A stretch of DNA of 64,000 nt from an uncultured Rivibacter sp. (GTDB lineage: Bacteria; Pseudomonadota; Gammaproteobacteria; Burkholderiales; Burkholderiaceae): positions 6,685 through 70,684 of the forward strand of contig CAMLLU010000024.1 in the NCBI GenBank assembly GCA_946480925.1, given 5' to 3'. Under the pieces are notes generated by a model. That model did not search any database and was not told where the DNA came from. It saw only the letters and a list, made by a program, of their open reading frames with translations. The translations under genes and the position numbers were made by a program. Of the stretch, positions 4,428-53,624 are shown piece by piece. The stretch's first letter is position 1. Every line of letters begins with the position of its first letter.

Positions 4428-5411
4428 TCAAGCGAACCAGCGTGCCGCCTGCTCGGCGGTGACGTTGCTGCCGCACAGCACCGTGGCCAGGCGCTGCGAG
4501 CGCAGCTGGCGGAGGTGTTCGAGCACGGCTGCCACGCCCACCACGCCGGCCGGCTCCACCACCAGGCCGGCCGCGGCGAACACCAGGCGCATCGCACGCT
4601 CGATGGCTTCGTCGCTCACCAGCAGCACGTCGTCCACCGTGCCTTGCATGTCGGCCAAGGCCTCAGGCACGGGGCGGCGCACGGCAATGCCGTCGGCAAT
4701 CGTGTGAACGGCCGCTCGGTCGATCAGCTTCCCTTCCTGCCACGACACCGCCATGGCATCGGCACCCGCGCTGGACACGCCGATCACGCGGGTGGCAGGC
4801 GCATGTGCCTTGATCCAGCGGCCCATGCCGGTGAGTAGCGCACCGTTGCCCAGCGGCACCAGCACGGCGTCGAAGGTGGCGCCCATGCGCAGCATTTCGA
4901 GCGCAATGGTGCCGGCGCCCTCGGCAATGGCGGCCTCGCGGCCGTCTTCCACCATCACGGCGCCGCTTTCGGCGCAGAAGCGGCGCGCCTCTTCCTTGGC
5001 GGTGTCGAAGTCGTCGCTGAAGAGGCGCACCTCGGCGCCCATGGCGCGCATGCGCTCGATCTTCAGCGGGTTGGCGGTGGTGGCGCTGTAGACCACCAGC
5101 GGCCAGCTGCGTGCGCGGCACACCCAGGCCATGGCCTGGCCCCAGTTGCCGGCGGTGGCGCACACCAGCGTGCGGCCGGCGAGTTGCTGCGCGTTTTCGT
5201 GCATGAAGAAGTCCGCGCCCCGGCCCTTGAACGAGCGCAGCGGGTTCATCGTCTCGACCTTGAGCGAGAGCGATGCGCCCAAGGCCTGCGACAGCGGCTC
5301 GCATTCGAACTGGGGTGTGTTGCGGAACACGGGGGCGATGCACTGCGCCGCACGTTCGATGCGGGCCAGCGACAGTCGGTGCGGGGGCGTTTCGATAAGC
5401 TTGCTCGTCAT
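4428..5411 (-). CDS. PLP-dependent threonine dehydratase/serine racemase-like enzyme
   Basis: A 327-residue fold-type II PLP enzyme. The cofactor lysine is in NPLRSFKGRGAD, near residue 67, and the phosphate-binding loop is VPLGNGALLTG. The TAGNWGQ stretch corresponds to the substrate loop and differs from the canonical S/TSGN. The closest known activities are threonine/serine ammonia-lyase or serine racemase. There is no ACT regulatory domain, so this is the catabolic-type length rather than biosynthetic IlvA. It is divergent from an Lrp/AsnC regulator 115 bp away, a common pairing for amino-acid catabolic genes, and that regulator probably controls it. Start chosen at ATG 5411; no strong ribosome-binding site is seen. 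Confidence 0.85.
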   Translation of the reverse strand: MTSKLIETPPHRLSLARIERAAQCIAPVFRNTPQFECEPLSQALGASLSLKVETMNPLRSFKGRGADFFMHENAQQLAGRTLVCATAGNWGQAMAWVCRARSWPLVVYSATTANPLKIERMRAMGAEVRLFSDDFDTAKEEARRFCAESGAVMVEDGREAAIAEGAGTIALEMLRMGATFDAVLVPLGNGALLTGMGRWIKAHAPATRVIGVSSAGADAMAVSWQEGKLIDRAAVHTIADGIAVRRPVPEALADMQGTVDDVLLVSDEAIERAMRLVFAAAGLVVEPAGVVGVAAVLEHLRQLRSQRLATVLCGSNVTAEQAARWFA

Positions 5412-5526
5412 GCCCGGCAGTGTGCCGAGCGGGCGGGGGCGCACGGCCGCGAAAGCCGGCCTTCGCGTGCGGCCAGGCCGCATTCCGCTTGCTGCTCGTG
5501 CGGGCCAACGACTCACCCACGAACCC

Positions 5527-5994
5527 ATGACGCTCGACGCTCTCGACCGCCGCATCCTCGACCTCTACCAGCGCGACACGCGCCAGCCCGCCGAGCGGAT
5601 CGGCGCACAGGTGGGCCTTTCGGCCGCCGCGGTGCAGCGAAGGCTCAAGCGCCTGCGCGAAGACGGCGTCATCGTCGCCGAGACGGCCCAGCTCGACTGC
5701 CGGCAGCTGGGCCTCACCTTCACCGCCATCGTGCACGTGGACCTGATCGACGAATCGTCACCCGCGACGCTGGCCTTCCAGCGCCGCATGAAGGAGCGGC
5801 CCGAGGTGCAGCAGGTCTACGGCGTGGCCGGCGCGGTGGACTACGTGCTGGTGGTCGTGGTGACGGGCCTTCCGGCCTACGAGGCTTTCTGCGAAGCCTG
5901 CCTGTTGCACGACGCCAACGTGCGCAGCTTCACCACCCACGTGGTGCTCGACGCGGCCAAGCGCGCGGGCCCGCTGGAGATCCCGGAGGACTGA
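5527..5994 (+). CDS. Lrp/AsnC-family transcriptional regulator
   Basis: A 155-residue regulator. Residues 2-60 form the N-terminal helix-turn-helix (LDRRILDLYQRDTRQ and VGLSAAAVQRRLKRLREDGVI). Residues 65-150 form the RAM ligand-binding domain (FTAIVHVDL, VQQVYGVAGAVDYVLVVVV). Such proteins sense amino acids and often control a divergently transcribed degradation gene. Here that gene is the PLP-dependent ammonia-lyase at 4428-5411, so the 5412-5526 gap is the expected operator. The ATG at 5527 is chosen because the HTH begins immediately after it; a longer upstream open frame overlaps the neighbour's start. Confidence 0.92.
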   Translation: MTLDALDRRILDLYQRDTRQPAERIGAQVGLSAAAVQRRLKRLREDGVIVAETAQLDCRQLGLTFTAIVHVDLIDESSPATLAFQRRMKERPEVQQVYGVAGAVDYVLVVVVTGLPAYEAFCEACLLHDANVRSFTTHVVLDAAKRAGPLEIPED

Positions 5995-6000
5995 GGTCGT

Positions 6001-6294
6001 TCAGCCGACGTCGGCTGTGCCCGCCTGCTGGCGAAAGGCCTGCGGCGACACGCCCGACCAGCGCTTGAACTGGCGGCTGAAGTGGGCCACGCTCGAATAG
6101 CCCAGCTGCTCGCTCACTTGGCCGATGGTCTGCCCGGCGTCGAGCAGCAGCAGGCGTGCGCGGCGCAGCTTGAGCAGTGCCAGCAGCTTGAACAGCGAGG
6201 CGCTGATCTCCAGGCGCCAGGCCAGCGAGGCCATCGGCGTTGCCGCATCGGCCTGCGCCATGCGGCGCAGCACGGGGGCGATCTGCTCGAGCAT
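6001..6294 (-). pseudogene. AraC-type DNA-binding domain, apparently truncated
   Basis: The 97 residues end with a good second AraC helix-turn-helix: GQTIGQVSEQLGYSSVAHFS followed by RQFKRWSGVSPQAFR. The family normally has about 250-330 residues with an N-terminal sensor domain and two helix-turn-helices. Here the first HTH region is atypical (ISASLFKLLALLKLRRARLL), and the frame is closed by a stop about 35 codons upstream of the ATG, with no recognisable sensor domain between. It is either a decayed remnant or an unusually short regulator. It is divergent from the transglutaminase gene at 6591, with which it shares a 296-bp upstream region. Confidence 0.6.
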
Positions 6295-6542
6295 CGGGCG
6301 AGGCCCATGCCCGCTGGCAGATGCATCCGCAGCACAGCGTGCACTGCTGGACGGAGCAGGTGGACAAAAGGCATTGCCCTTGGCGGCGAAGTACTACTCG
6401 CGCGGCGTTAGTAGCAACGTGTGGCTCACGCAGGAGCGGCCGCAGGACTGAGCGGTCGATTGCGATCGCGGTCCCGACGAAGGAATTCAGCGACATGTGT
6501 GCACCCAGCCCTGGTGGCTGCCCTCCCGTTCCGATGGCATGA

Positions 6543-6558
6543 TGGCCCGGGTCTTGCA
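6543..6558 (+). promoter_or_regulatory. Sigma-54-like -24/-12 promoter element
   Basis: TGGCCC, five bases, then TTGCA matches the sigma-54 consensus TGGCAC-N5-TTGCW with one change in the -24 box. It lies 33 bp upstream of the GTG start of the transglutaminase-DUF2126 gene, a normal distance. A comparable element precedes the second gene set at 13672. Predicted only; no convincing enhancer-binding site was identified. Confidence 0.5.
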
Positions 6559-6590
6559 TCGGGACGAGGGCACTTTCCCAGGAGGAGTTC

Positions 6591-9500
6591 GTGGCCATTC
6601 ATGTCGCGCTGAACCACGTCACGCATTACCGCTACGACCGCCGCGTCGGCCTGTCGCCCCAGGTCGTGCGCCTGCGCCCCGCGCCGCACTGCCGCACACC
6701 CATCCTGTCGTATTCGCTGCGCGTCGAGCCGGCCCAGCACTTCATCAACTGGCAGCAGGACCCGTTCTCGAACTACCTCGCACGGCTCGTCTTCCCCGAG
6801 AAGACCACCGAGTTCAAGATCACCGTCGACCTGGTGGCCGAGATGTCGGTCTACAACCCGTTCGACTTCTTTCTCGAACCCAGCGCCGAGCAATACCCGT
6901 TCAGCTACGAAAAAGACCTCGAGCACGACCTCGCGCCTTATCTCGTGTGCGACCCGCTCACACCGCGCTTCGCGGCCTTCGTCGAAAGCATCCCACGCGG
7001 GGATGACGGCCCCCAGACGCCTTCAGCGTCGCCCCCCGAGGGGGGGCTGCCTCTTGGGGCGGCCCGGCGAGGCAAGAAGGTGCGCACCATCGACTTCCTG
7101 GTGGGCCTGAACCAGCGGCTGCAGAAGGACATTCGCTACCTCATCCGCATGGAGCCCGGCGTGCAGACGCCGGAAGAGACGCTCGAGCTCGCTTCAGGCT
7201 CGTGTCGAGACACCGGCTGGCTCCTGGTGCAGGCGCTGCGCCACCTGGGGCTCGCAGCCCGCTTCGTGTCGGGCTACCTCATCCAGCTCAAGCCCGACGT
7301 GAAAGCGCTCGACGGGCCGACGGGCGCCGAGGTCGACTTCACCGACCTGCACGCCTGGTGCGAGGTGTATTTGCCGGGCGCCGGCTGGATCGGCCTGGAC
7401 CCGACCTCCGGCCTGCTGGCCGGCGAAGGCCACATTCCGGTGGCCTGCACGCCCGAGCCGTCGAGCGCGGCACCGGTCGCCGGTGCGGTGGACGAATGCG
7501 AGGTCGAGTTCGGCCACGAGATGTCCGTCACGCGGGTGTACGAGTCGCCGCGGGTCACCAAGCCTTACACCGAAGAGCAGTGGCAGCAGGTGCTCGACCT
7601 CGGCCATGCGGTGGACCGCGAACTCGATGCGATGGACGTGCGCCTTACCATGGGCGGCGAACCCACCTTCGTGTCGGTGGAAGACCGCGACGGTGCCGAG
7701 TGGAACACCGCGGCGCTCGGGCCCACCAAGCGCGGCTACGCCACCGAGCTGGTGCAAAAGCTGCGGGCGAAATACGGCGAGGGCGGCTTCCTGCACTTCG
7801 GCCAGGGCAAGTGGTACCCGGGCGAGCAGCTGCCGCGCTGGGCGCTCTCGGTCTTCTGGCGTACCGATGGCGAACCGTGCTGGAGCGACCCGGCGCTGTT
7901 CGCCGACGAGCGTGAGCCGTCCCGCTACACCGAGCAGGACGCGCAACGTTTCATCCACGCGCTCACCGGCAAGCTGGGCCTGGGTCCGCAGTACATCCAG
8001 CCCGGCTACGAAGACACCTGGTACTACCTCTGGCGCGAGCGCCGCCTGCCGGTGAACGTGGACCCGTTCGACGCGCGGCTCGACGACGAGATGGAGCGCG
8101 AGCGCCTGCGCCGCGTGTTCTCGCAGGGGCTCGACAGGGTGGTGGGCTACATGCTGCCGCTCAAGCGTGAGTGGTCCGTCGGACTCAATGGTCCTACGTG
8201 GGTGACCGGCCCCTGGTTCTTCCGCGACGAGCGTATGTACCTCTTCCCCGGCGATTCGCCCATGGGCTACCGCCTGCCGCTCGATTCGCTGCCGTGGGTG
8301 AACGAGGCCGACCGCAGCTACCAGATCGAGCAGGACCCGTACGCACCACGCGACCGCCTGCGGCCGACTGCCGAGATCCGCAGCCAGTACTCGGGCCAGC
8401 CGGTGGCTCACACGCCGCCCGAAGCGCCCAGCACCGGCTGGCGCGGCCGCATCGGCGTGCCCACTGCGGGGCATGCGCCTGTCTCGCACGGCGAGCGTGG
8501 CGTCGAAGAAAAACCGCAGCGTTTCGAGTCGGCCCACTGGATCACGCGCACCGCCATGTGCGTGGAAGCGCGCGGCGGCGTGCTCTACGTCTTCATGCCG
8601 CCGCTGGCCGAGCTCGACGACTACCTGGACCTGCTGGCCGCGGTGGAGGCCACGGCCGCCGAATTGAACGTGAAGCTCGTGCTCGAAGGCTACCCGCCGC
8701 CGCGCGACCCACGGCTGAAGGTGCTGCAGGTCACGCCCGACCCCGGCGTCATCGAAGTCAACATCCACCCCGCGTCCAGCTGGGACGAACTGGTGGACCA
8801 CACCGAGTTCCTGTACCAGGCCGCGCACGAGTCGCGCCTGTCGACCGAGAAATTCATGGTCGATGGCCGCCACACCGGCACCGGCGGCGGCAACCACTTC
8901 GTGCTGGGCGGCGCCACGCCCGGCAACAGCCCCTTCCTGCGCAGGCCCGACCTGCTGCCCAGCCTGCTCACCTATTGGCACAACCACCCGTCGCTGAGCT
9001 ACCTGTTCTCGGGCCTGTTCATCGGTCCCACCAGCCAGGCACCACGCATCGACGAGGCACGCAACGACCAGATCTACGAGGTGGAGATCGCGCTGCGGGA
9101 GATCGAGCGCCAGGCCGGCCTCACCGCTGAAACGCCGCCGTGGCTCATCGACCGCACGCTGCGCAACCTGCTCATCGACGTGACCGGCAACACGCACCGC
9201 GCCGAGTTCTGCATCGACAAGCTGTATTCGCCCGACGGCCCCACCGGCCGCCTGGGCCTGCTGGAGTTGCGCGCCTTCGAGATGCCGCCGCATGCGCGCA
9301 TGAGCCTCGTGCAGCAACTGCTGTTGCGTGCGCTGGTCGCGTGGTTCTGGCGCGAGCCCTACACCGGGCGCGGCGCCACGCGGCTCACGCGCTGGGGCAC
9401 CGGCCTGCACGACCGCTTCCTGCTGCCCACCTTCGTGCAGATGGACTTCGACGACGTGCTCGTCGAGCTCACGCGCGCGGGCTTCACGTTCGACCCGGCG

Positions 9501-10070
9501 TGGTTCGCGCCGCACTTCGAATTCCGCTTCCCGATGGTGGGCGAGGTGAACGTGGCCGGCATCCACCTCACGCTGCGCAACGCACTCGAGCCCTGGCACG
9601 TGATGGGCGAGGAGGGGGCCGCTGGCAGCACGGTGCGGTATGTCGATTCGTCGCTCGAGCGGCTGGAAGTCAAGGCCACGGGGCTCAACGGCAACCGCTA
9701 CGTCGTCACCGTCAACGGCCAGGCGATCGCGTTGCAGCCCACCGGCCGCGTGGCCGAGCACGTGGCCGGTGTGCGCTACCGAGCCTGGCAGCCCGTCTCG
9801 GCCCTGCACCCGACCATCGGCGTGCATGCGCCGCTCACCTTCGACATCGTGGACACGTGGCTGGATCGTTCGCTGGGGGGCTGCCGCTATCATGTTTCCC
9901 ACCCGGGCGGGCGCAACTACGACACCTTCCCGGTCAATGCCTACGAGGCGGAGAGCCGACGCTTGGCGCGCTTCTTCAAGCTGGGGCACACCCCGGGGCA
10001 GCTGCAGGTGCAGCATGCTCCGCCCAGCCAGGAGTTCCCCTTCACCGTCGACCTGCGCCAAGTTCCTTGA
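6591..10070 (+). CDS. Transglutaminase-like protein fused to DUF2126
   Basis: An 1159-residue protein starting at GTG 6591, after a strong AGGAGG at 6580-6585. Order: bacterial transglutaminase N-terminal beta domain (about 3-85), transglutaminase core (about 165-270) with Cys in SGSCRDTGW, His in DLHAWCEVY and Asp in GLDPTSG, so the Cys-His-Asp triad is complete, then a long DUF2126 region (about 330-1150). DUF2126 proteins are known partners of circularly permuted ATP-grasp and alpha-E proteins in predicted peptide-tagging systems. No signal peptide or membrane segment, so probably cytoplasmic. Residues about 138-163 are encoded by a GC-rich repeat inserted in frame. The ATP-grasp gene follows after 15 nt. 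The biochemical reaction is unproven for the family. Confidence 0.9.
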   Translation: MAIHVALNHVTHYRYDRRVGLSPQVVRLRPAPHCRTPILSYSLRVEPAQHFINWQQDPFSNYLARLVFPEKTTEFKITVDLVAEMSVYNPFDFFLEPSAEQYPFSYEKDLEHDLAPYLVCDPLTPRFAAFVESIPRGDDGPQTPSASPPEGGLPLGAARRGKKVRTIDFLVGLNQRLQKDIRYLIRMEPGVQTPEETLELASGSCRDTGWLLVQALRHLGLAARFVSGYLIQLKPDVKALDGPTGAEVDFTDLHAWCEVYLPGAGWIGLDPTSGLLAGEGHIPVACTPEPSSAAPVAGAVDECEVEFGHEMSVTRVYESPRVTKPYTEEQWQQVLDLGHAVDRELDAMDVRLTMGGEPTFVSVEDRDGAEWNTAALGPTKRGYATELVQKLRAKYGEGGFLHFGQGKWYPGEQLPRWALSVFWRTDGEPCWSDPALFADEREPSRYTEQDAQRFIHALTGKLGLGPQYIQPGYEDTWYYLWRERRLPVNVDPFDARLDDEMERERLRRVFSQGLDRVVGYMLPLKREWSVGLNGPTWVTGPWFFRDERMYLFPGDSPMGYRLPLDSLPWVNEADRSYQIEQDPYAPRDRLRPTAEIRSQYSGQPVAHTPPEAPSTGWRGRIGVPTAGHAPVSHGERGVEEKPQRFESAHWITRTAMCVEARGGVLYVFMPPLAELDDYLDLLAAVEATAAELNVKLVLEGYPPPRDPRLKVLQVTPDPGVIEVNIHPASSWDELVDHTEFLYQAAHESRLSTEKFMVDGRHTGTGGGNHFVLGGATPGNSPFLRRPDLLPSLLTYWHNHPSLSYLFSGLFIGPTSQAPRIDEARNDQIYEVEIALREIERQAGLTAETPPWLIDRTLRNLLIDVTGNTHRAEFCIDKLYSPDGPTGRLGLLELRAFEMPPHARMSLVQQLLLRALVAWFWREPYTGRGATRLTRWGTGLHDRFLLPTFVQMDFDDVLVELTRAGFTFDPAWFAPHFEFRFPMVGEVNVAGIHLTLRNALEPWHVMGEEGAAGSTVRYVDSSLERLEVKATGLNGNRYVVTVNGQAIALQPTGRVAEHVAGVRYRAWQPVSALHPTIGVHAPLTFDIVDTWLDRSLGGCRYHVSHPGGRNYDTFPVNAYEAESRRLARFFKLGHTPGQLQVQHAPPSQEFPFTVDLRQVP
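6995..7080 (+). repeat. GC-rich hairpin repeat inserted in frame in the transglutaminase-DUF2126 gene
   Basis: The stretch contains CGCCTTCAGCG (7018-7028), then CCCCCC-GA-GGGGGG and more GC-rich sequence. It encodes a low-complexity Gly/Pro/Ala-rich segment between the N-terminal beta domain and the transglutaminase core. The CGCCTTCAGCG core followed by a C-run recurs on the minus strand at 22120-22130, in the DUF58 gene. The reading frame stays open, so the element is tolerated as a linker. Confidence 0.6.
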
Positions 10071-10085
10071 TTTCCGGCGCATGGG

Positions 10086-12707
10086 ATGCAGCAGTCCACC
10101 CTCGAGTTCGATACCAGTGCCAGCTTTGCCGACGCCGCGGCGCACGCGGTGCTGCATGCCTCCAAGGCGGCCGACCCCGGCCACTACGACGAGCTGATCG
10201 ACCCGAGCGGCCAGGCACTGCGCCCGGCCTGGCGCGAATTCGTGAGCCTGCTGGGGCCCGACGGGCTGAGCAGCATGGAGCGCCGCCACGCGCAGATCGA
10301 GCGGCAGATCCACGAGAACGGCGTCACCTACAACGTCTTTTCCGACAGCGGCGGCCCCACGCGGCCGTGGTCGCTGGGGCTCCTGCCGTTCCTCATCGAG
10401 CCGGCGGACTGGCGGCACATCGAAGCCGGCGTGGCGCAGCGCGCCGAGCTGCTGCAGACCTTGCTCGCCGACGTATACGGCCCGCAGCAACTGCTGCAAG
10501 ACGGCCTGCTGCCCAGCGCGCTGGTGCAGGGCCACCCCGGCTACCTGCGCGCGCTGCAGGGGGTGGTGCCGGTGGGCGGCAAGCACCTGCACATCGTGGC
10601 CTTCGACCTGGCGCGCGGGCCCGACGCCAACTGGTGGGTGGTGGGCCAGCGCACGCAGTCGCCCTCGGGCCTGGGCTATGTGATGGAGAACCGGCTCATC
10701 ACGTCGCGCCTGTTCCCCGAGGCCTTCCGCGAGCTGCGCGTGCAGCACCTGGCCTCGGGCTACCGCCGCCTGCTCGACACGCTGCAGCAGCTGGCCACGC
10801 CCTGCGCCGACGGCCACGCGCCGCGGCTGGCGCTGCTCACGCCCGGGCCCTATAGCGAAACCTATTTCGAGCATGCCTACCTGGCGCGCTACCTGGGCCT
10901 GCCGCTGGTGGAAGGCGGCGACCTCACGGTGCGCGACGACCGGCTCTACCTCAAGACCGTGCAGGGGCTCGAGCCTATCCATGGCCTGCTGCGCCGCCTC
11001 GACGACGACTACTGCGACCCGCTGGAGCTGCGTGCGGATTCGACGCTGGGCGTGCCGGGGCTGCTGCAGGTCATTCGCGCCGGGCGCGTGGTGGTGACCA
11101 ACGCACTGGGCGCGGGCTTCCTGGAGTCGCCTGCCATCCAGGGTTTCCTGCCAGCCATCGCAGAGCAGTTGCTGGGCCAGCCGCTTTCACTGCCTGGCCT
11201 GCCCACCTGGTGGTGCGGCGAGCGCGCGGCGTGGGACGCGGCGCGTGAGTCGGGCCAGGTGGGCGTGGTGCGCGCGACCTACCCGCGCGCCACCGGCCGC
11301 GGCGTGGACCCTGGCATCGGCGCGCCGCTGAACGACGCCACCATGCCCGAGTGGCGTGCCCGGATCGACGCCGACCCCGACGCCTACACCCTTCGCGGCT
11401 ATCTGCCGTTTTCACAGACGCCGTGGTGGGCGGCGGGCCAGTTCCTGCCGCGCACGGCCATGCTGCGCGTCTATGCCATCGCCGATGCGCAAGGCGGCTG
11501 GAAGGTGCTGCCCGGCGGCATGACGCGCATCGCGCAGCACGATCCCGACGTGGTGTCGATGCAGCATGGCGGCAGCAGCCTGGACACCTGGGTCATGACC
11601 GACGGCCCGGTCGATACCTTTTCGATGCTGCAGCAGCGCCTGCGCATCGACGACCTTGCAGGGCGCGCGCGGCCGGTGTCCAGCCGCACCGCCGAGAACC
11701 TGTTCTGGATGGGCCGCTACACCGAGCGTACCGAACAGCTCGTGCGGCTCACCATGGCGACTTCCACGCTGGTCGATGAAGACGACGACACGCCCGAAGC
11801 GCTGCTCGACGCGGTGACCGAACTCGCGCGCAACACCGGCCTGGCGCCTTTCGGCTCGCCCAGCCTGGCGCAGGCACCGCGCATCTTCGAGCGAGCGGTG
11901 GTGGCAGCGCTGGGCGACGCGCAAGGCGAGCGCAGCATTGCGTTCAACCTGGCCTCGCTGGGCCGCGCCGCGGGTGCCCTGCGCGACCGGCTGTCGCCCG
12001 AGCACTGGCGGCTGGTGCGCAAGATGAGCGAGGACTTCGAAGCGCGCATGGCCTGGGTGGCGGCCTCCGAAGTGTCCGGCGGTGCCGGCTTCGCCGCAGC
12101 CGAACTGCAGGAAGCGCTCGAACACCTTGCCGACCAGCTGGCCGCCGTGACCGGCGCGCAAACCGACCGCATGACGCGCGACGACGGCTGGCGCCTGCTC
12201 ACGGTCGGGCGGCTCATCGAGCGCCTGGTGGGCGTGGCCAGCACGCTGCACGCCTTCTTTGCCGGCCGTGCGGTGTATGGGGTGCAGGGCTTCGACATGC
12301 TGCTTGCGTTGTTCGACAGCACCATCACCTTCCGCGCACGCTACCAGCGCCGCCAGGACCTGCTGGCCCTGGTGGACTTGCTGGTGTTGGACGAATCGAA
12401 CCCCCGCGCGCTGGCCTGCGTGCTGCGCCGCCTGCGCGCCGAGCTGCGCAAGCTGCCGCAGGCTGGCGGCCCGGTCGAAGGCCTGCTGGCGCTGCTGCCG
12501 CAGGAAGGGGCAGGCGCCACGCTCGCCGAGCTGCAGGGCCGGCGCGACCGCGAGACCGACCCGAGCGCCCCCAGTGGTGATGCACACGACGACCGCATCC
12601 TGGCCCTTTGCGAGCGGCTCATGGAGGCCGGTGCGCGCCTGTCCGACGAGGTCGGCCGCCGCTACTTCGCCCATGCCGATGGATACGAACAGCACCTCAG
12701 CGCCTGA
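10086..12707 (+). CDS. Circularly permuted ATP-grasp protein fused to alpha-E domain
   Basis: An 873-residue fusion. Residues about 60-520 resemble the circularly permuted ATP-grasp family (DUF404/DUF407), with LLTPGPYSETYFEHAYLAR, a GYVMENRLITSR segment and LPGGMTRIA. Residues about 530-860 are an alpha-E helical domain that begins SSRTAENLFWMGRYTERTEQ. ATP-grasp enzymes form amide bonds through acyl phosphates, and this subfamily is predicted to ligate amino acids or peptides. It lies between two transglutaminase-fold genes and overlaps the downstream one by 35 nt. The second set (13717-16264) encodes the same two domains as separate proteins. Function is inferred from families and context. 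Confidence 0.9.
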   Translation: MQQSTLEFDTSASFADAAAHAVLHASKAADPGHYDELIDPSGQALRPAWREFVSLLGPDGLSSMERRHAQIERQIHENGVTYNVFSDSGGPTRPWSLGLLPFLIEPADWRHIEAGVAQRAELLQTLLADVYGPQQLLQDGLLPSALVQGHPGYLRALQGVVPVGGKHLHIVAFDLARGPDANWWVVGQRTQSPSGLGYVMENRLITSRLFPEAFRELRVQHLASGYRRLLDTLQQLATPCADGHAPRLALLTPGPYSETYFEHAYLARYLGLPLVEGGDLTVRDDRLYLKTVQGLEPIHGLLRRLDDDYCDPLELRADSTLGVPGLLQVIRAGRVVVTNALGAGFLESPAIQGFLPAIAEQLLGQPLSLPGLPTWWCGERAAWDAARESGQVGVVRATYPRATGRGVDPGIGAPLNDATMPEWRARIDADPDAYTLRGYLPFSQTPWWAAGQFLPRTAMLRVYAIADAQGGWKVLPGGMTRIAQHDPDVVSMQHGGSSLDTWVMTDGPVDTFSMLQQRLRIDDLAGRARPVSSRTAENLFWMGRYTERTEQLVRLTMATSTLVDEDDDTPEALLDAVTELARNTGLAPFGSPSLAQAPRIFERAVVAALGDAQGERSIAFNLASLGRAAGALRDRLSPEHWRLVRKMSEDFEARMAWVAASEVSGGAGFAAAELQEALEHLADQLAAVTGAQTDRMTRDDGWRLLTVGRLIERLVGVASTLHAFFAGRAVYGVQGFDMLLALFDSTITFRARYQRRQDLLALVDLLVLDESNPRALACVLRRLRAELRKLPQAGGPVEGLLALLPQEGAGATLAELQGRRDRETDPSAPSGDAHDDRILALCERLMEAGARLSDEVGRRYFAHADGYEQHLSA

Positions 12708-49362: not shown

Positions 49363-50163
49363 TCAGGCAGCTTCTTTCTCGACGTGGGCGTGCCGCGTGT
49401 AGAGGAAGTCGAGCACCTCGCGCCGGCAATGCACGTATTGCGGATCCTCCGCCAGCTCCACGCGGTTGCGCGGGCGCGGCAGGTTCACGTCGAGGATCTC
49501 GCCGATCGTGGCGGCCGGGCCGTTGGTCATCATCACGATGCGGTCCGACAGCAGCACGGCTTCGTCCACGTCGTGCGTGACCATTACCACGGTGCTTTTG
49601 GTGCGGGCCACGATCTTCAGCAGTTCGTCCTGCAAGTGGGCACGGGTCAGTGCATCCAGGGCGCCGAAGGGCTCGTCCATCAGCAGCACCTTGGGCTCCA
49701 TGGCCAGCGCCCGTGCAATGCCCACGCGCTGCTTCATGCCGCCAGACACCTCGTGCGGGCGCTTGTTGGCCGCATGCGCCATGTTCACCAGGGCCAGGGC
49801 GGCCTGGGTGCGTTCCTTCAGCTTGGCCTTGGACTCCACCGCACCGAACACGCGCTCCACCGCGAGGTAGACGTTTTCGAAGCAGGTGAGCCAGGGCAGC
49901 AGCGAGTGGTTCTGGAACACGACCGCGCGCTCGGGGCCTGGCGCGGCGATCTCGCGGCCGTCGCAGATCAAGCCGCCTGACGTGGGCGTCAGGAGGCCGG
50001 CGATCAGGTTCAGCAACGTGGACTTGCCGCAGCCCGAATGGCCGATCAGCGTGACGAACTCGCCGCGGGCCACTTGCAGGTTGATGTCGCGCAGTGCGTG
50101 AAAGCGCCCCTTCCTGGTGGTGAACACCATCTCGGTGCGCTGAACGTCGATGAAGTTTTTCAT
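49363..50163 (-). CDS. nrtD: Nitrate ABC transporter, ATP-binding protein
   Basis: A 266-residue ABC ATPase of the nitrate/taurine/sulfonate class. Walker A is GHSGCGKST, the Q-loop is FQNHSLLPW, the signature is VSGGMKQR, Walker B is VLLMDEPFGALD and the H-loop is VTHDVDEA. It powers uptake through the adjacent permease. ATG 50163 was preferred over 50181 because AAGGAG then lies 9 nt upstream. Last gene of the minus-strand nrt operon, closed by the terminator at 49222. Confidence 0.9.
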   Translation of the reverse strand: MKNFIDVQRTEMVFTTRKGRFHALRDINLQVARGEFVTLIGHSGCGKSTLLNLIAGLLTPTSGGLICDGREIAAPGPERAVVFQNHSLLPWLTCFENVYLAVERVFGAVESKAKLKERTQAALALVNMAHAANKRPHEVSGGMKQRVGIARALAMEPKVLLMDEPFGALDALTRAHLQDELLKIVARTKSTVVMVTHDVDEAVLLSDRIVMMTNGPAATIGEILDVNLPRPRNRVELAEDPQYVHCRREVLDFLYTRHAHVEKEAA

Positions 50164-50187
50164 GATGGGCAACTCCTTCATTCAGGC

Positions 50188-51096
50188 TCAGTCTTCGAAA
50201 CTGAAGCGCTTGGCGACGGCCATGAGTGCCTGCTCGAGCAGCAGGCCGACGATGCCGATCACGAAGATGGCGATGATGATGTGGGCCACGTTGAGGTTGT
50301 TCCACTCGTCCCACACCCAGAAGCCGATGCCCACGCCGCCGGTCAGCATCTCGGCGGCCACGATCACCAGCCACGCCGTTCCCACCGACAGGCGCACGCC
50401 GGTCAGCATGTACGGCAGCACCGCGGGGAACAGGATCTTCGTGATGACCTTCCATTCGCTGAGGTTCAGCACACGCGCGACGTTGAGGTAGTCCTGCGGC
50501 ACACGCTGCACGCCCACGGCGGTGTTGATGATCATCGGCCAGATGGAGCAGATGAAGATGGTCCAGATGGCTGCCGGGTTGGCGGACTTGAACACCATCA
50601 GGCCGATGGGCAGCCAGGCCAGCGGTGACACAGGGCGCAACAGGCTGATGAGCGGCGACGCCATGCTGTTGAGCACGGCGAAGCGGCCGATCATGAAGCC
50701 AGCCGGAATGCCCACCACGGCTGCCAGGCCGAAGCCCAGGCCCACGCGCTGCAGCGAATTCAGCACGTTCCATCCAATGCCCTGGTCGTTCGGGCCGTTG
50801 CGATAGAACGGGTCGCCAAAGAGCTTGACGGCGGCATCGAAGGTGGCAGCCGGCGTGGGAAACCCGCTGGCACCGCTCATCGTGAGCAGCGCCCAGATGC
50901 CGATCAGCAAGGCCAGGCCGAAGACGGGCGGCAACACCTTGAGCGACACCGCTCGCCAGTCGACCGGCGTGCGCACCGGCTTGGGCTCTGCGGGCTTCAC
51001 GTCGGCCGTTGCCGCAGTGCGTGGCGCCGCGGCGGACCGCGTGGGCGTCTCGGGCGTCGAAGACGCCGAGGGGTTGTGGAAAACAGCGCTCACCAT
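50188..51096 (-). CDS. nrtB: Nitrate ABC transporter, permease
   Basis: A 302-residue permease. An N-terminal Pro/Ala-rich cytoplasmic tail (to about 45) precedes six predicted helices. The EAA-like loop is recognisable as VARVLNLSEWKVITKILFPA, just before VLPYMLTGVRLSVGTAWL, as in NrtB/SsuC-type permeases. ATG 51096 follows GAAGGAG 7 nt upstream. It lies 19 nt after nrtA and 24 nt before nrtD. Confidence 0.9.
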   Translation of the reverse strand: MVSAVFHNPSASSTPETPTRSAAAPRTAATADVKPAEPKPVRTPVDWRAVSLKVLPPVFGLALLIGIWALLTMSGASGFPTPAATFDAAVKLFGDPFYRNGPNDQGIGWNVLNSLQRVGLGFGLAAVVGIPAGFMIGRFAVLNSMASPLISLLRPVSPLAWLPIGLMVFKSANPAAIWTIFICSIWPMIINTAVGVQRVPQDYLNVARVLNLSEWKVITKILFPAVLPYMLTGVRLSVGTAWLVIVAAEMLTGGVGIGFWVWDEWNNLNVAHIIIAIFVIGIVGLLLEQALMAVAKRFSFED

Positions 51097-51115: not shown

Positions 51116-52372
51116 TCAAGCCTTGACCTTGAAGCTGTCGGCGTACTTGGCTGGGTCCTTGCCGTCCCACACTGTGCCGTCGACCAGCTTGCTGCTGCGC
51201 AGCGTTTCCTTCGGGACGTTCACCTTCGCCAAGGCGGCACCCTGCTTGTAGAGCTCGATCTGGTTGACCTGCTTGGCCACGCCGAGATAGTCCGGGTGTT
51301 CTTTCAGCAGGCCCCAGCGCTTGTGCTGCGTGAGGAACCACATGCCGTCGGACAGGTACGGGAAGTTCACCGAGCCGTCGCTGAAGAACTTCATGTGGTT
51401 CGGGTCGTCCCAGGTCTTGCCCAGGCCGTTCTGGTAGCGGCCCAGGATGCGCTGGTTGATCACGTCCACGCTGGTGTTGACGTAGGCCTTGTCGGCCACC
51501 GTCTCGGCCATCTTCAGCTTGTTCTGCAGGCCGGCGTCGATCCACTTGCTCGCCTCGAGGATGGCCGCCACCACCGCGCGCGCCGTGTTGGGGTACTTCT
51601 TCACGAAGTCGGCCGTGGTGCCGAGCGCTTTTTCGGGGTGGTCGCGCCAGATGTCCTGCGTGGTGACGGCGGTGATGCCGATGCCGTCGGCAATGGCGCG
51701 GTGGCCCCAGGGCTCGCCGACGCAATACCCGTCCATGTTGCCCACGCGCATGTTGGCCACCATCTGCGGCGGCGGCACCGTGATGACCTTGGCGTCCTTC
51801 ATCGGGTTGATGCCGTAGGTCGCCAGCCAGTAGTACAGCCACATCGCGTGGGTGCCGGTCGGGAAGGTCTGCGCGAAGGTGTAGTCGCGCTTGTCGGCGG
51901 TCATCAGCCTGGCGAGGCTGGGGCCGTCCACCGCGCCCTTGTCGGCCAGCTTCTTCGACAGCGTGATGGCCTGGCCGTTGTGGTTGAGGTTCATCAGCAC
52001 GGCCATGTCCTTCTTGGGGCCGCCCACGCCGAGGTGCACGCCGTAGATCAGGCCCCACAGCACGTGCGCCATGTCGAGCTCGCCGTTGACGAGCTTGTCG
52101 CGCACGCCGGCCCACGAGGCCTCTTTCGTGGGAACGATCTTGATGCCGTACTTCTTGTCGATGCCCAGCACCGAGGCCATCACCACCGACGCGCAATCGG
52201 TCAGTGGAATGAAGCCGATCCTGACTTCTTCCTTTTCGGGCTTGTCGGAGCCTGCGGCCCAGACGGCGGTGTGCAAGCCCGGCACCACGCTGGTGGCGCC
52301 GACGGCGGCGGTGGCTTTGATCAATTTGCGGCGTCCCATGTTGGCCTTCGGTTTGAACTCGGTCGTGGACAT
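51116..52372 (-). CDS. nrtA: Nitrate ABC transporter, substrate-binding protein (Tat-exported)
   Basis: A 418-residue periplasmic binding protein of the NrtA/CmpA family. The N-terminus has a twin-arginine motif RRKLIK followed by a hydrophobic stretch, so export of the folded protein by Tat is expected. NrtA landmarks are EVRIGFIPLTDCASVVMAS, GELDMAHVLWGLIYGVHLG and DGYCVGEPWGHRAI. No cysteine lipobox is seen. First gene of nrtABD. Its leader (about 52373-52516) carries a terminator and two ANTAR-type hairpins, so transcription should depend on nitrogen status and nitrate. Confidence 0.92.
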   Translation of the reverse strand: MSTTEFKPKANMGRRKLIKATAAVGATSVVPGLHTAVWAAGSDKPEKEEVRIGFIPLTDCASVVMASVLGIDKKYGIKIVPTKEASWAGVRDKLVNGELDMAHVLWGLIYGVHLGVGGPKKDMAVLMNLNHNGQAITLSKKLADKGAVDGPSLARLMTADKRDYTFAQTFPTGTHAMWLYYWLATYGINPMKDAKVITVPPPQMVANMRVGNMDGYCVGEPWGHRAIADGIGITAVTTQDIWRDHPEKALGTTADFVKKYPNTARAVVAAILEASKWIDAGLQNKLKMAETVADKAYVNTSVDVINQRILGRYQNGLGKTWDDPNHMKFFSDGSVNFPYLSDGMWFLTQHKRWGLLKEHPDYLGVAKQVNQIELYKQGAALAKVNVPKETLRSSKLVDGTVWDGKDPAKYADSFKVKA

Positions 52373-52406: not shown

Positions 52407-52460
52407 GAAAAACGGCGTCGTCGCTCCAGCTGCAAGACGCAGCAGGGCGAAGACGCCGTT
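52407..52460 (-). terminator. Leader terminator (attenuator) upstream of nrtA
   Basis: On the minus strand the arm complementary to 52447-52460 pairs with that of 52411-52424 (GACGCCGTT side) with one mismatch in 14, around a 22-nt apical part with its own 5-bp stem. CCGTTTTTC follows at once, an intrinsic terminator 35 nt before the nrtA ATG. Confidence 0.8.
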
Positions 52461-52466
52461 GTCGAA

Positions 52467-52513
52467 GAACCGCCAACCTTGGCGGCTCTTGGGGTGGGAT
52501 CGCCGTTGATCCC
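52467..52513 (-). promoter_or_regulatory. Two-hairpin ANTAR RNA motif in the nrtA leader
   Basis: Reading the RNA, hairpin P1 is GGGATC-AACGGC-GATCCC (52513-52496) and P2 is CCGCC-AAGGTT-GGCGG (52485-52470), extensible to 8 bp with one G-U. Both loops are hexamers with A at position 1 and G at position 4, the published ANTAR-binding rule. They sit directly upstream of the terminator. Confidence 0.82.
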
Positions 52514-52526
52514 TGGGGCTCAGTTC

Positions 52527-52542
52527 AGCAAGAGGTGTGCCA
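52527..52542 (-). promoter_or_regulatory. Sigma-54 promoter of the nrt operon
   Basis: The minus strand reads TGGCAC, ACCTC, TTGCT (52542-52527), a full match to TGGCAC-N5-TTGCW. The predicted start near 52516 lies 3 nt before the first ANTAR hairpin. Confidence 0.8.
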
Positions 52543-52595: not shown

Positions 52596-53234
52596 TCAAC
52601 TCAGCACATCGGCCACGTCGAGCACACGCTGCGCCACCTCGGCCAGCCTCAGCCCGCGGTCCATCGCGGTCTTGCGCAGGCGCGCATAGGCCTCTTCCTC
52701 GGTCAGGCCGTTGCGGGTCATCAAGAGGCCCTTGGCGCGGTCGATCACCTTGCGCTCCGAAAGCTGCGTGCGCGCATCGGCGAGCTCGCGGCGCATCGTC
52801 TCTTCGTGCTGGAAGCGCGCCATCGCCACTTCGAGCACGGGCTTCACACGGTCGGACGCGAGGCCCGCCACCACGTAGGCCGTCACGCCAGCGGCGATGG
52901 CGTCCTTCACGTGGCTGGTGTCATCGTCGTCGGTGAAAAGCACGATGGGGCGGCGCGCCTCGCGTGTGGCCATCACCACGTGCTCCAGCGTGTCGCGCGC
53001 CTGGCTCTCGGCGTCCACGATGATCATGTCCGGCTGGATCTGCGAAATGCGGTCCGGCAGGAAGGTGTCGACGGGCAGCACGGCCACGATGTTGTAGCCG
53101 TTTTCGAGCAAGCCGATGCGCAGGCTGCGCGAGCGCTCCGCCTCCCACCAGGCTTGCGTGTCCGAAGGGTCGGGCGCGAGCGAATCTGGTGCAACGATGA
53201 CGATGCGCAGGGCATGGACCGGGCTCATGGGCAT
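52596..53234 (-). CDS. nasT: ANTAR-domain antiterminator NasT
   Basis: A 212-residue regulator. Residues 10-125 form a receiver-like domain (IVIVAPDSL, DMIIVDAESQ with Asp74, RRPIVLFTDDDD). Residues 152-211 form a helical ANTAR RNA-binding domain (LSERKVIDRAKGLLMTRNGL, EEEAYARLRKTAMDRGL, AEVAQRVLDVA). NasT-type proteins bind paired hexaloop hairpins and prevent termination. Exactly such hairpins lie in the nrtA leader 80 nt downstream of this gene. The usual nitrate-sensing partner NasS is not visible in the window. The start may be ATG 53234 or ATG 53228. Confidence 0.9.
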   Translation of the reverse strand: MPMSPVHALRIVIVAPDSLAPDPSDTQAWWEAERSRSLRIGLLENGYNIVAVLPVDTFLPDRISQIQPDMIIVDAESQARDTLEHVVMATREARRPIVLFTDDDDTSHVKDAIAAGVTAYVVAGLASDRVKPVLEVAMARFQHEETMRRELADARTQLSERKVIDRAKGLLMTRNGLTEEEAYARLRKTAMDRGLRLAEVAQRVLDVADVLS

Positions 53235-53342: not shown

Positions 53343-53624
53343 TCAGCCCAAGTCTGCGCTGTCGCGGGCCCGGCGGATCCAGCCCAGCGGCATGAGGCTG
53401 CCGAACAGCGACTCAGGCTCCGGCATGCCCCGCTCGGACAATACTCCGCACTCGAGCAGCAGTTCGACGAATTCCTTCACGGCGGCGCGCGCCAGCCCGC
53501 TGGCCTGCATGAGTTGAGCGACGGAAGCATGCCGCTGTGACATCTCGTGCAGCATGCGCCGATAAGCGGTGCGGTGATAGGCGGCTGGCAACTCAGGCCA
53601 GCCCAAGAGTTTGTACTCTTTCAT
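53343..53624 (-). CDS. Small winged-helix-like protein
   Basis: A 93-residue protein (ATG 53624, GGAG close upstream). It begins MKEYKLLGWPELPAAYHRTA and contains an HTH-like segment, MSQRHASVAQLMQASGLARA, followed by AVKEFVELLLECGVLSER. The arrangement resembles a small DNA-binding or MarR-like wing domain, but I cannot name a family. It is not clearly linked to nasT, from which a terminator-like hairpin separates it, and it lies divergent from tsaD. Confidence 0.7.
   Translation of the reverse strand: MKEYKLLGWPELPAAYHRTAYRRMLHEMSQRHASVAQLMQASGLARAAVKEFVELLLECGVLSERGMPEPESLFGSLMPLGWIRRARDSADLG

Follow-up and report, generated by a model that had tools for sequence, protein, structure and literature searches.

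A sigma-54 leader with three hexaloop hairpins, probably a NasT-controlled attenuator, ahead of the nitrate transport genes of an uncultured Rivibacter

The window, a stretch of 64,000 nucleotides from an uncultured Rivibacter species, carries a leader on its minus strand between nasT and an operon of NrtA-, NrtB- and NrtC-type genes. The best reading of this leader, judged from its sequence, is an attenuator controlled by the ANTAR protein NasT. Computation gives a sigma-54 promoter, three conserved hexaloop hairpins in series (H1, H2 and P3), an overlap of P3 with the terminator and the order of the genes; no NasS was found in the relatives sampled. We consider it probable that this sigma-54 leader provides NasT-controlled read-through, that H1 is an extra hairpin in the series of three and that the sensor is a protein other than NasS.

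The gene nasT (positions 52596 to 53228, minus strand) encodes a pseudo-receiver and an ANTAR RNA-binding domain (Pfam ANTAR, 79 bits, residues 151-203). It lies directly upstream of the leader, ending at 52596, and the Pfam match bears out its description as an ANTAR gene in an earlier annotation made from the DNA alone (the first-pass annotation). An ANTAR hexaloop attenuator calls for an ANTAR protein encoded in the genome, and the adjoining nasT supplies one. On the other side of the leader and on the same strand, nrtA (nasF, 51116 to 52372) encodes a nitrate-binding protein (NMT1_2, 337.6 bits) with a twin-arginine motif in a Tat signal, MGRRKLIKA..., read off the sequence; a search identified 2g29 NrtA as a solved relative (E 1.6e-75). 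The permease gene nrtB (50188 to 51096, minus strand; TIGR01183, 250.7 bits) and the ATPase gene nrtC (49363 to 50181, minus strand; TIGR01184, 350.9 bits) follow, both matches being above cut-off. A megablast search of plasmid records with the locus matched 176 of them, none covering 80% of the query, and in the best 20 of the 176 records the matches are to transporter genes.

All elements of the leader lie on the minus strand. The promoter, TGGCACACCTCTTGCT, occupies 52527 to 52542 and reads TGGCAC-N5-TTGCT, as had been claimed, with the -12 position at 52528. Counting 12 nt beyond the -12 C places the predicted transcription start at about 52516, 3 nt ahead of H1. H1 (52496 to 52513) is GGGATC[AACGGC]GATCCC, the loop being bracketed, and H2 (52465 to 52490) is AAGAGCCGCC[AAGGTT]GGCGGTTCTT. 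Sequence and predicted fold agree with the first-pass annotation that both are hexaloops with A at position 1 and G at position 4 (A1/G4). A third such hairpin, which it missed, follows: P3 (52452 to 52463) is GAC[AACGGC]GUC, also A1/G4. The window leader therefore has three hexaloops in series and what had been called hairpin 2 is the middle one. The linker between H1 and H2 is 5 nt; that between H2 and P3 is about 1 nt with H2 fully paired and longer with its end pairs open. The intrinsic terminator (52408 to 52460, -32.9 kcal/mol) has the stem AACGGCGUC...GACGCCGUU from 52460 to 52411 and a T5 tract at 52412 to 52408. Its description as a T5 terminator ahead of nrtA is correct, with 35 nt separating the end of the tract at 52408 from the start of nrtA at 52372; a simple terminator scan, with a loop limit of 8 nt, did not list it. 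The whole leader folds at -70 kcal/mol compared with -46.1 ± 4.0 kcal/mol for shuffled sequences (z -6.0, none of 200 as good).

P3 shares 9 nt (52460 to 52452) with the terminator 5' arm. Its position corresponds to that of canonical ANTAR P2: Ramesh 2012 (PMC3369931) locates the second ANTAR hairpin at the terminator's 5' base. ANTAR attenuators have at least two tandem A1/G4 hexaloop hairpins, the last of which overlaps and excludes an intrinsic terminator. The window leader has three tandem hairpins and P3 is the one that overlaps and excludes. Descriptions so far give two hairpins and no more; there are three here, and we count the leader as a variant because the pair H2 and P3 matches the definition.

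Conservation was assessed with a NasT scan of named genomes, which gave 77 loci, the best from Methylibium rhizosphaerae (NasT 95% identical); L074 was left out as the locus ends at the match. A fold-based detector, blind to the identity of the H1 and H2 loops, accepted 55 of 77 sequences (76 loci and the window). A first P3 detector, which accepted 38 of 77, was too strict, as was the earliest pattern. Forty of the accepted leaders satisfy three-hairpin criteria, three satisfy two-hairpin criteria and 12 neither, several of these through a misplaced P3; the detector misplaced it in L008, L013, L015, L026, L039 and L046. The sigma-54 site retains nine or ten of ten consensus positions in 54 of the 55; in the remaining leader, L013, the script misplaced the site, which the sequence alignment does show.

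Fifty leaders with a promoter-P3 distance of 75-105 nt (49 loci and the window) were aligned by sequence alone, a set selected for three-hairpin spacing that omits the two-hairpin leaders L031, L046, L047 and L050 and the longer L053. A1 and G4 occur together in 47 of the 50 at H1 and in 44 at H2, with positions 3 and 5 varying freely, against a mean background of 5.5% for A..G at the loop spacing along the alignment; these column counts score heptaloops and shifted rows (L012, for example) as they fall. P3 has G4 in every row. The 14 named base pairs, from a structure taken from a member of the aligned set, are formed in 90.7% of cells as opposed to 33-57% in slid controls, and a change on each side of the pair is seen in 116 cells, compared with 33 ± 7 in shuffles (none of 500 as high). 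Counted by pair, nine show such a double change, which does not exceed the shuffles (7.5 ± 0.9, 49 of 500 as high). In H1 (95.2% of cells paired) five of the six pairs carry double changes, and in H2 (79.3%) four of the five; the P3 stem is paired in 100% of cells, its three pairs being too constant for covariation. Many rows are close kin, the median pairwise identity being 56%. The first-pass annotation had made its reading depend on conservation of the hairpins in related genomes, and across these 50 leaders H1 and H2 are conserved. The promoter, H1, H2 and the terminator are genuine and conserved features.

Loop spacings suggest how the three hairpins relate to the familiar two. The H2-P3 spacing is 24-25 nt in 20 of the 40 three-hairpin leaders, equal to A29-A53 of eutP (PMC3369931) and, by hand count, to the spacing in the narK consensus; H1 lies 32-33 nt further upstream in 19 of the 40. 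In the window the spacings are 27 nt for H1-H2 and 20 nt for H2-P3. The upstream hairpin of two-hairpin leaders in the same order lies mostly 17-34 nt from P3. On account of these spacings we assign H2 and P3 as the canonical pair, H2 corresponding to canonical P1 and P3 to canonical P2, with H1 as an upstream addition. H2 has a heptaloop in six of the 40 leaders.

Two- and three-hairpin spacings are both found across the order. A promoter-gap-P3 pattern, run over 300 of its genomes, matched 44 with the gap set for three hairpins and 25 with it set for two; a reversed control pattern matched in five and four genomes, respectively. Inspection covered 30 of 47 three-spacing and all 25 two-spacing sites, and by a script measure 23 of the 30 and 21 of the 25 have a terminator, a few of these doubtful (L158, for example). 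In ten of the 23 both H1 and H2 are predicted to fold as A1/G4 hexaloops; the other 13 have a single A1/G4 hexaloop, have a loop of another kind or fold differently. At hand-picked sites, ten of the 23 and ten of the 21, the downstream proteins were tested after truncation to 400 residues. They are NrtA-type in ten cases, NarK-type in five, NirB or NirB-like in four (one NirB-type and three pyridine-nucleotide reductases of the NirB kind) and an EAL protein in one. The five NarK-type and the single NirB-type matches fall below the curated cut-off, as expected for cut proteins. Massilia-type leaders, which lie behind nasT-nasS, have three A1/G4 loops in four of five loci (L204, L205, L206 and L208) and two in L207.

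From this arrangement we infer the binding of NasT, its passage between hairpins and the input of a signal. RNA polymerase would start about 3 nt before H1 at the sigma-54-dependent promoter and, with H1 this close to the predicted start, NasT could load once the RNA leaves the polymerase. Active NasT would be captured by the A1/G4 hexaloop of H1 as the RNA emerges and handed from H1 to H2 and on to P3. Held by NasT, P3 would keep the terminator 5' arm out of the terminator and nrtABC would be transcribed; if no active NasT were present, the terminator (-33 kcal/mol) would form. H1 would serve as an extra recruitment hairpin on top of the canonical H2 and P3, giving two recruitment hairpins in series. 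The scheme extends the successive-binding model of Walshe 2022 (PMC8934654), in which an ANTAR dimer binds a recruitment hairpin first and passes to an antitermination hairpin within a tight linker limit, and A1 may keep the loop open. The two-hexaloop mechanism of eut and its linker limits, 5-12 nt, are described in PMC3369931. NasR is reported to prefer A1/G4 loops closed by C:G (PMC7496416), and NasT to bind a nasA leader, nitrate freeing it from NasS (PMC3795266).

Several observations count against this model. If every H2 pair forms, the H2-P3 linker in the window, about 1 nt, is below the 5-12 nt of eut. Six of the 50 leaders have a single A1/G4 loop and the window leader scores below the gathering score of RF03032, discussed below. 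Also against it are the double-change count per pair, which does not exceed the shuffles and lowered our confidence slightly, the origin of the structure within the alignment and the close kinship of many rows. A scan for NtrC sites is at chance level, with 91 matches and 96 ± 11 expected, and nothing convincing among them. The Paracoccus leader also counts here: PMC5424462 reports that of its two hairpins only the first has a strong effect on induction.

A further difficulty concerns the P3 loop. Position 1 is G in 39 of the 50 aligned leaders, each with C6 and so able to seal the loop; the window and L001 keep A1. In folds of isolated hairpins GGACGACGGCGUCC forms five pairs and a tetraloop (-6.0), and GGACAACGGCGUCC retains its hexaloop (-4.0). 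By the same column count, three A1/G4 loops are present in eight leaders, two in 36 and one in six. According to Walshe 2022 (PMC8934654), A1 is not contacted by the protein and may prevent pairing across the loop, and a methionine may exclude tetraloops. Alignment shows Y-x7-M in the window NasT, matched by its spacing to Tyr164 and Met172 of EutV, the roles of which are described in the same source. If NasT resembles EutV, most aligned leaders should therefore not be gripped at P3. Since P3 is G1/C6 in 39 of 50 and may not bind NasT, a grip on P3 cannot be general. The 39 antitermination loops closable by a G1-C6 pair, together with the extra recruitment hairpins, constitute a natural test set for the successive-binding model; the three loops, the sealed P3 and the missing NasS make that model testable.

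The sealed loop bears on the switch as it was drawn in the first-pass annotation, with NasT acting on H1 and H2 only and P3 being merely a part of the terminator. An attenuator before nrtA remains the best reading, but H1 and H2 as drawn would not serve as the excluding pair: H2 lies clear of the terminator, and because that pair does not overlap it, the arrangement gives no mutual exclusion. The H1-H2 linker of 5 nt is inside the reported range, and 33 of the 50 leaders have A1/G4 loops in H1 and H2 and a G1/C6 P3, so that in these the functional pair would be H1 and H2. However, P3 has G4 throughout the alignment and a fully paired stem, and the order's two-hairpin leaders keep the terminator-side P3, albeit in a search pattern that required it. 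We regard a switch confined to H1 and H2 as unlikely. A separate idea, that the terminator 3' arm might act as a decoy by pairing with H1 through the AACGGCG identical in H1 and P3, was rejected because the loop lists show that this identity is not kept in relatives.

How NasT is controlled is the second question posed by the locus. NasS-NasT systems encode a cytoplasmic NasS together with nasT, and none is found beside nasT in the window. The first-pass annotation noted that NasS is missing from the window; among the five locus proteins scanned, the sole NMT1_2 protein is the Tat-bearing NrtA. It also proposed a genome search for nasS, which was run in relatives, using the window NrtA as query against 28 genomes at E 1e-15. 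In five Massilia-type genomes the gene directly behind nasT encodes a plausible NasS, a Tat-less protein of 54-57% identity. In the other 23, which have nasT and a Tat-bearing NrtA, no NasS was found at this limit. The same query picks up a Paracoccus NasS at E 2e-37 (set size 6000), and a canonical NasS would therefore be expected to show up in such a search. The twin-arginine motif ahead of mature NrtA was recognised by script in 22 of the 23 genomes and by eye in L071 (RRKWIQ). The query has just seven further matches, in six of the 23 (33-38% identity); these also bear a twin-arginine motif, and no ANTAR match was found on their contigs. In the closest relative (NasT 95%) an NMT1_2 scan gives NrtA at 336.6 bits and the next protein at 67 bits, with no second strong protein. 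A sample of 120 genomes of the family contains 57 with NasT-type (E <= 1e-30) and 85 with NrtA-type matches (E <= 1e-40), the latter a limit that could miss a canonical NasS. In three of the NasT genomes, G329, G366 and G404, the NrtA-type match beside nasT begins at residue 28-38 and there is a second homologue at 37-38%.

At two loci, L028 (about 5340-6640) and L040 (about 8580-10160), a Tat-less NrtA-like protein is encoded behind nasT and the leader region, followed by a second, distant NrtA that bears a Tat motif. A tree of 79 proteins places this pair (support 100/99) inside Tat-bearing NrtA (a six-row clade, 99/97). The Massilia NasS-like group (14 rows, 100/100) also nests in the NrtA/NasF clade of beta-proteobacteria and is separate from Paracoccus NasS, which has a very long branch; long branches, and a deviant composition of the Massilia rows, were flagged by the tree program. 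Outside the tree, a search with a Massilia NasS-like protein gave 7842 matches, the best 120 being 74-99% identical. By parsimony, Tat-less NasS-like proteins appear to have been derived from exported NrtA at least twice. The first-pass annotation considered NrtA an unlikely substitute for NasS on account of its Tat signal. That argument is weaker than claimed: since NasS-like proteins arose twice inside exported NrtA in this tree, NrtA is a better candidate partner than was allowed. Because Tat substrates are already folded when they leave the cytoplasm, a cytoplasmic NrtA precursor could contact NasT. The two origins favour an NrtA that may already be able to touch NasT. The activity of NasT would most likely be set by a protein other than NasS, with this precursor as the leading candidate. 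The locus raises the matter of how NasT is controlled without NasS and hints that NasS-like proteins can arise from NrtA.

Alternatively, NasT might be constitutively free, with nitrogen control lying wholly at the sigma-54 promoter through NtrC and the attenuator simply following the amount of NasT. The failure to find NasS in 23 genomes fits this, as does the presence of NasT as the sole ANTAR match in six of the 28. We nevertheless think it improbable, because an attenuator blind to nitrate is hard to square with its conservation and NasS-like partners seem to have evolved anew behind nasT.

It is similarly doubtful that another nitrate-sensing ANTAR protein, of the NIT-ANTAR or the REC-like/ANTAR/PilJ-PilJ kind, works the leader or pairs with NasT. 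Such proteins do occur: a scan of five second ANTAR proteins found ANTAR combined with two PilJ stretches in four, including one from Methylibium rhizosphaerae, and the fifth is NIT-ANTAR; M. rhizosphaerae also has a third, weaker ANTAR match. However, six genomes with the nasT-leader-nrtA locus show NasT alone, so the locus can exist without a second ANTAR protein, and the gene that adjoins the leader is nasT, not that of another ANTAR protein.

A bolder reading combines the two themes in a NasT switch rebuilt in this beta-proteobacterial lineage: a ladder of three hexaloops in which most P3 loops are sealed, NasT sits on H1 and H2 with no grip on the antitermination hairpin, and exported NrtA in place of NasS is the sensor. 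We hold this to be quite unlikely as a whole; were it true, NrtA would be sensed as a folded cytoplasmic Tat precursor and a transporter subunit would report on its own supply. Least likely is a NasS encoded elsewhere in the window's own genome: the searches covered relatives' genomes, yet the closest of these has no second strong NMT1_2 protein and Paracoccus NasS scores far inside the limit used.

The beta-proteobacterial NasT proteins aligned share a beta1-alpha1 insertion, missing in Paracoccus and L073. The notion that this insertion replaces NasS was rejected because it is present in the NasS-bearing Massilia and absent from Paracoccus and L073.

The leader has points in common with several known systems. 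With the ANTAR dual-hexaloop attenuators, EutV/eut and NasR/nasF (PMC3369931, PMC8934654), it shares A1/G4 hexaloops with a C:G closing pair, a last hairpin at the terminator 5' base and a spacing of about 24 nt between the last two loops. It differs in the third, upstream hexaloop, in the G1/C6 loop at the terminator in 39 of 50 leaders and in the H2 heptaloop of six of 40. The three-hexaloop NasT attenuator may be considered a variant of the known ANTAR hexaloop attenuator, and three-loop leaders may already be published. Outside attenuators three loops have a precedent in the EutX sRNA, for which Walshe 2022 (PMC8934654) mentions one further hexaloop.

The Rfam family RF03032, narK RNA, matches positions 52541 to 52450. 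The score is 39.1 bits, short of the gathering score of 43.2, and E is 4.6e-6 for a search of 401 bases; the promoter lies within the match. Shared features are the sigma-54 box, a first hexaloop hairpin with AACGGC and a CGACAA..GUC block. H2 of the window sits in a 23-nt insertion. The consensus ends in CGACAAAGACGUCGC, which we interpret as a hexaloop hairpin CGAC[AAAGAC]GUCG, and P3 falls at the same place. In the 28 relatives' genomes 17 match at E <= 0.1 and none passes the cut-off. RF00625, P11 of Pseudomonas, is a named sRNA in Rfam. In a class sample of 229 genomes outside the order it gave ten matches, nine of them below the cut-off and mixed. The one above, L224, resembles our leader in its sigma-54 box, its terminator and its three A1/G4 hexaloops; it differs in loop spacings of 42 nt (by hand count) and 18 nt and in an H2 closed by G:C. 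These likenesses suggest that narK RNA, which we read as a two-hexaloop leader, and P11 are ANTAR leaders. A literature search, largely of open-access papers, found no paper on the narK RNA or motif, with or without ANTAR.

NasS-NasT systems (Paracoccus, Azotobacter, Pseudomonas) likewise place NasT beside a leader before nitrate genes; in Paracoccus marcusii the order is an ANTAR gene, an NrtA-like gene without a long leader peptide, a gap, nrtABC and nirB. Here, in contrast, no nasS lies between nasT and the leader, and none was found in 23 sampled relatives. The nasR-nasF loci of enterics (Erwinia rhapontici, Klebsiella) share the order ANTAR gene, leader and NrtA/NasF operon, as well as the sigma-54 box, but their NIT-ANTAR regulator NasR itself senses nitrate. 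The Erwinia leader has two hexaloops, one flagged by script and the second, GGAT[AAAGGC]GTCC, seen by eye.

Three minor observations remain. A small ORF at 53346 to 53624 (minus strand), upstream of nasT, has no match in Pfam or NCBIfam. The ANTAR proteins with two PilJ stretches (PF13675) are those of L211 (3220-4491, Methylibium rhizosphaerae, beside an MFS transporter ORF), L213, L214 and L215, and are possibly another class of nitrate-responsive antiterminator. Finally, the EAL-domain protein, of the cyclic-di-GMP phosphodiesterase type, is encoded at L175 (1607-2806) behind a sigma-54 two-hairpin leader and terminator.
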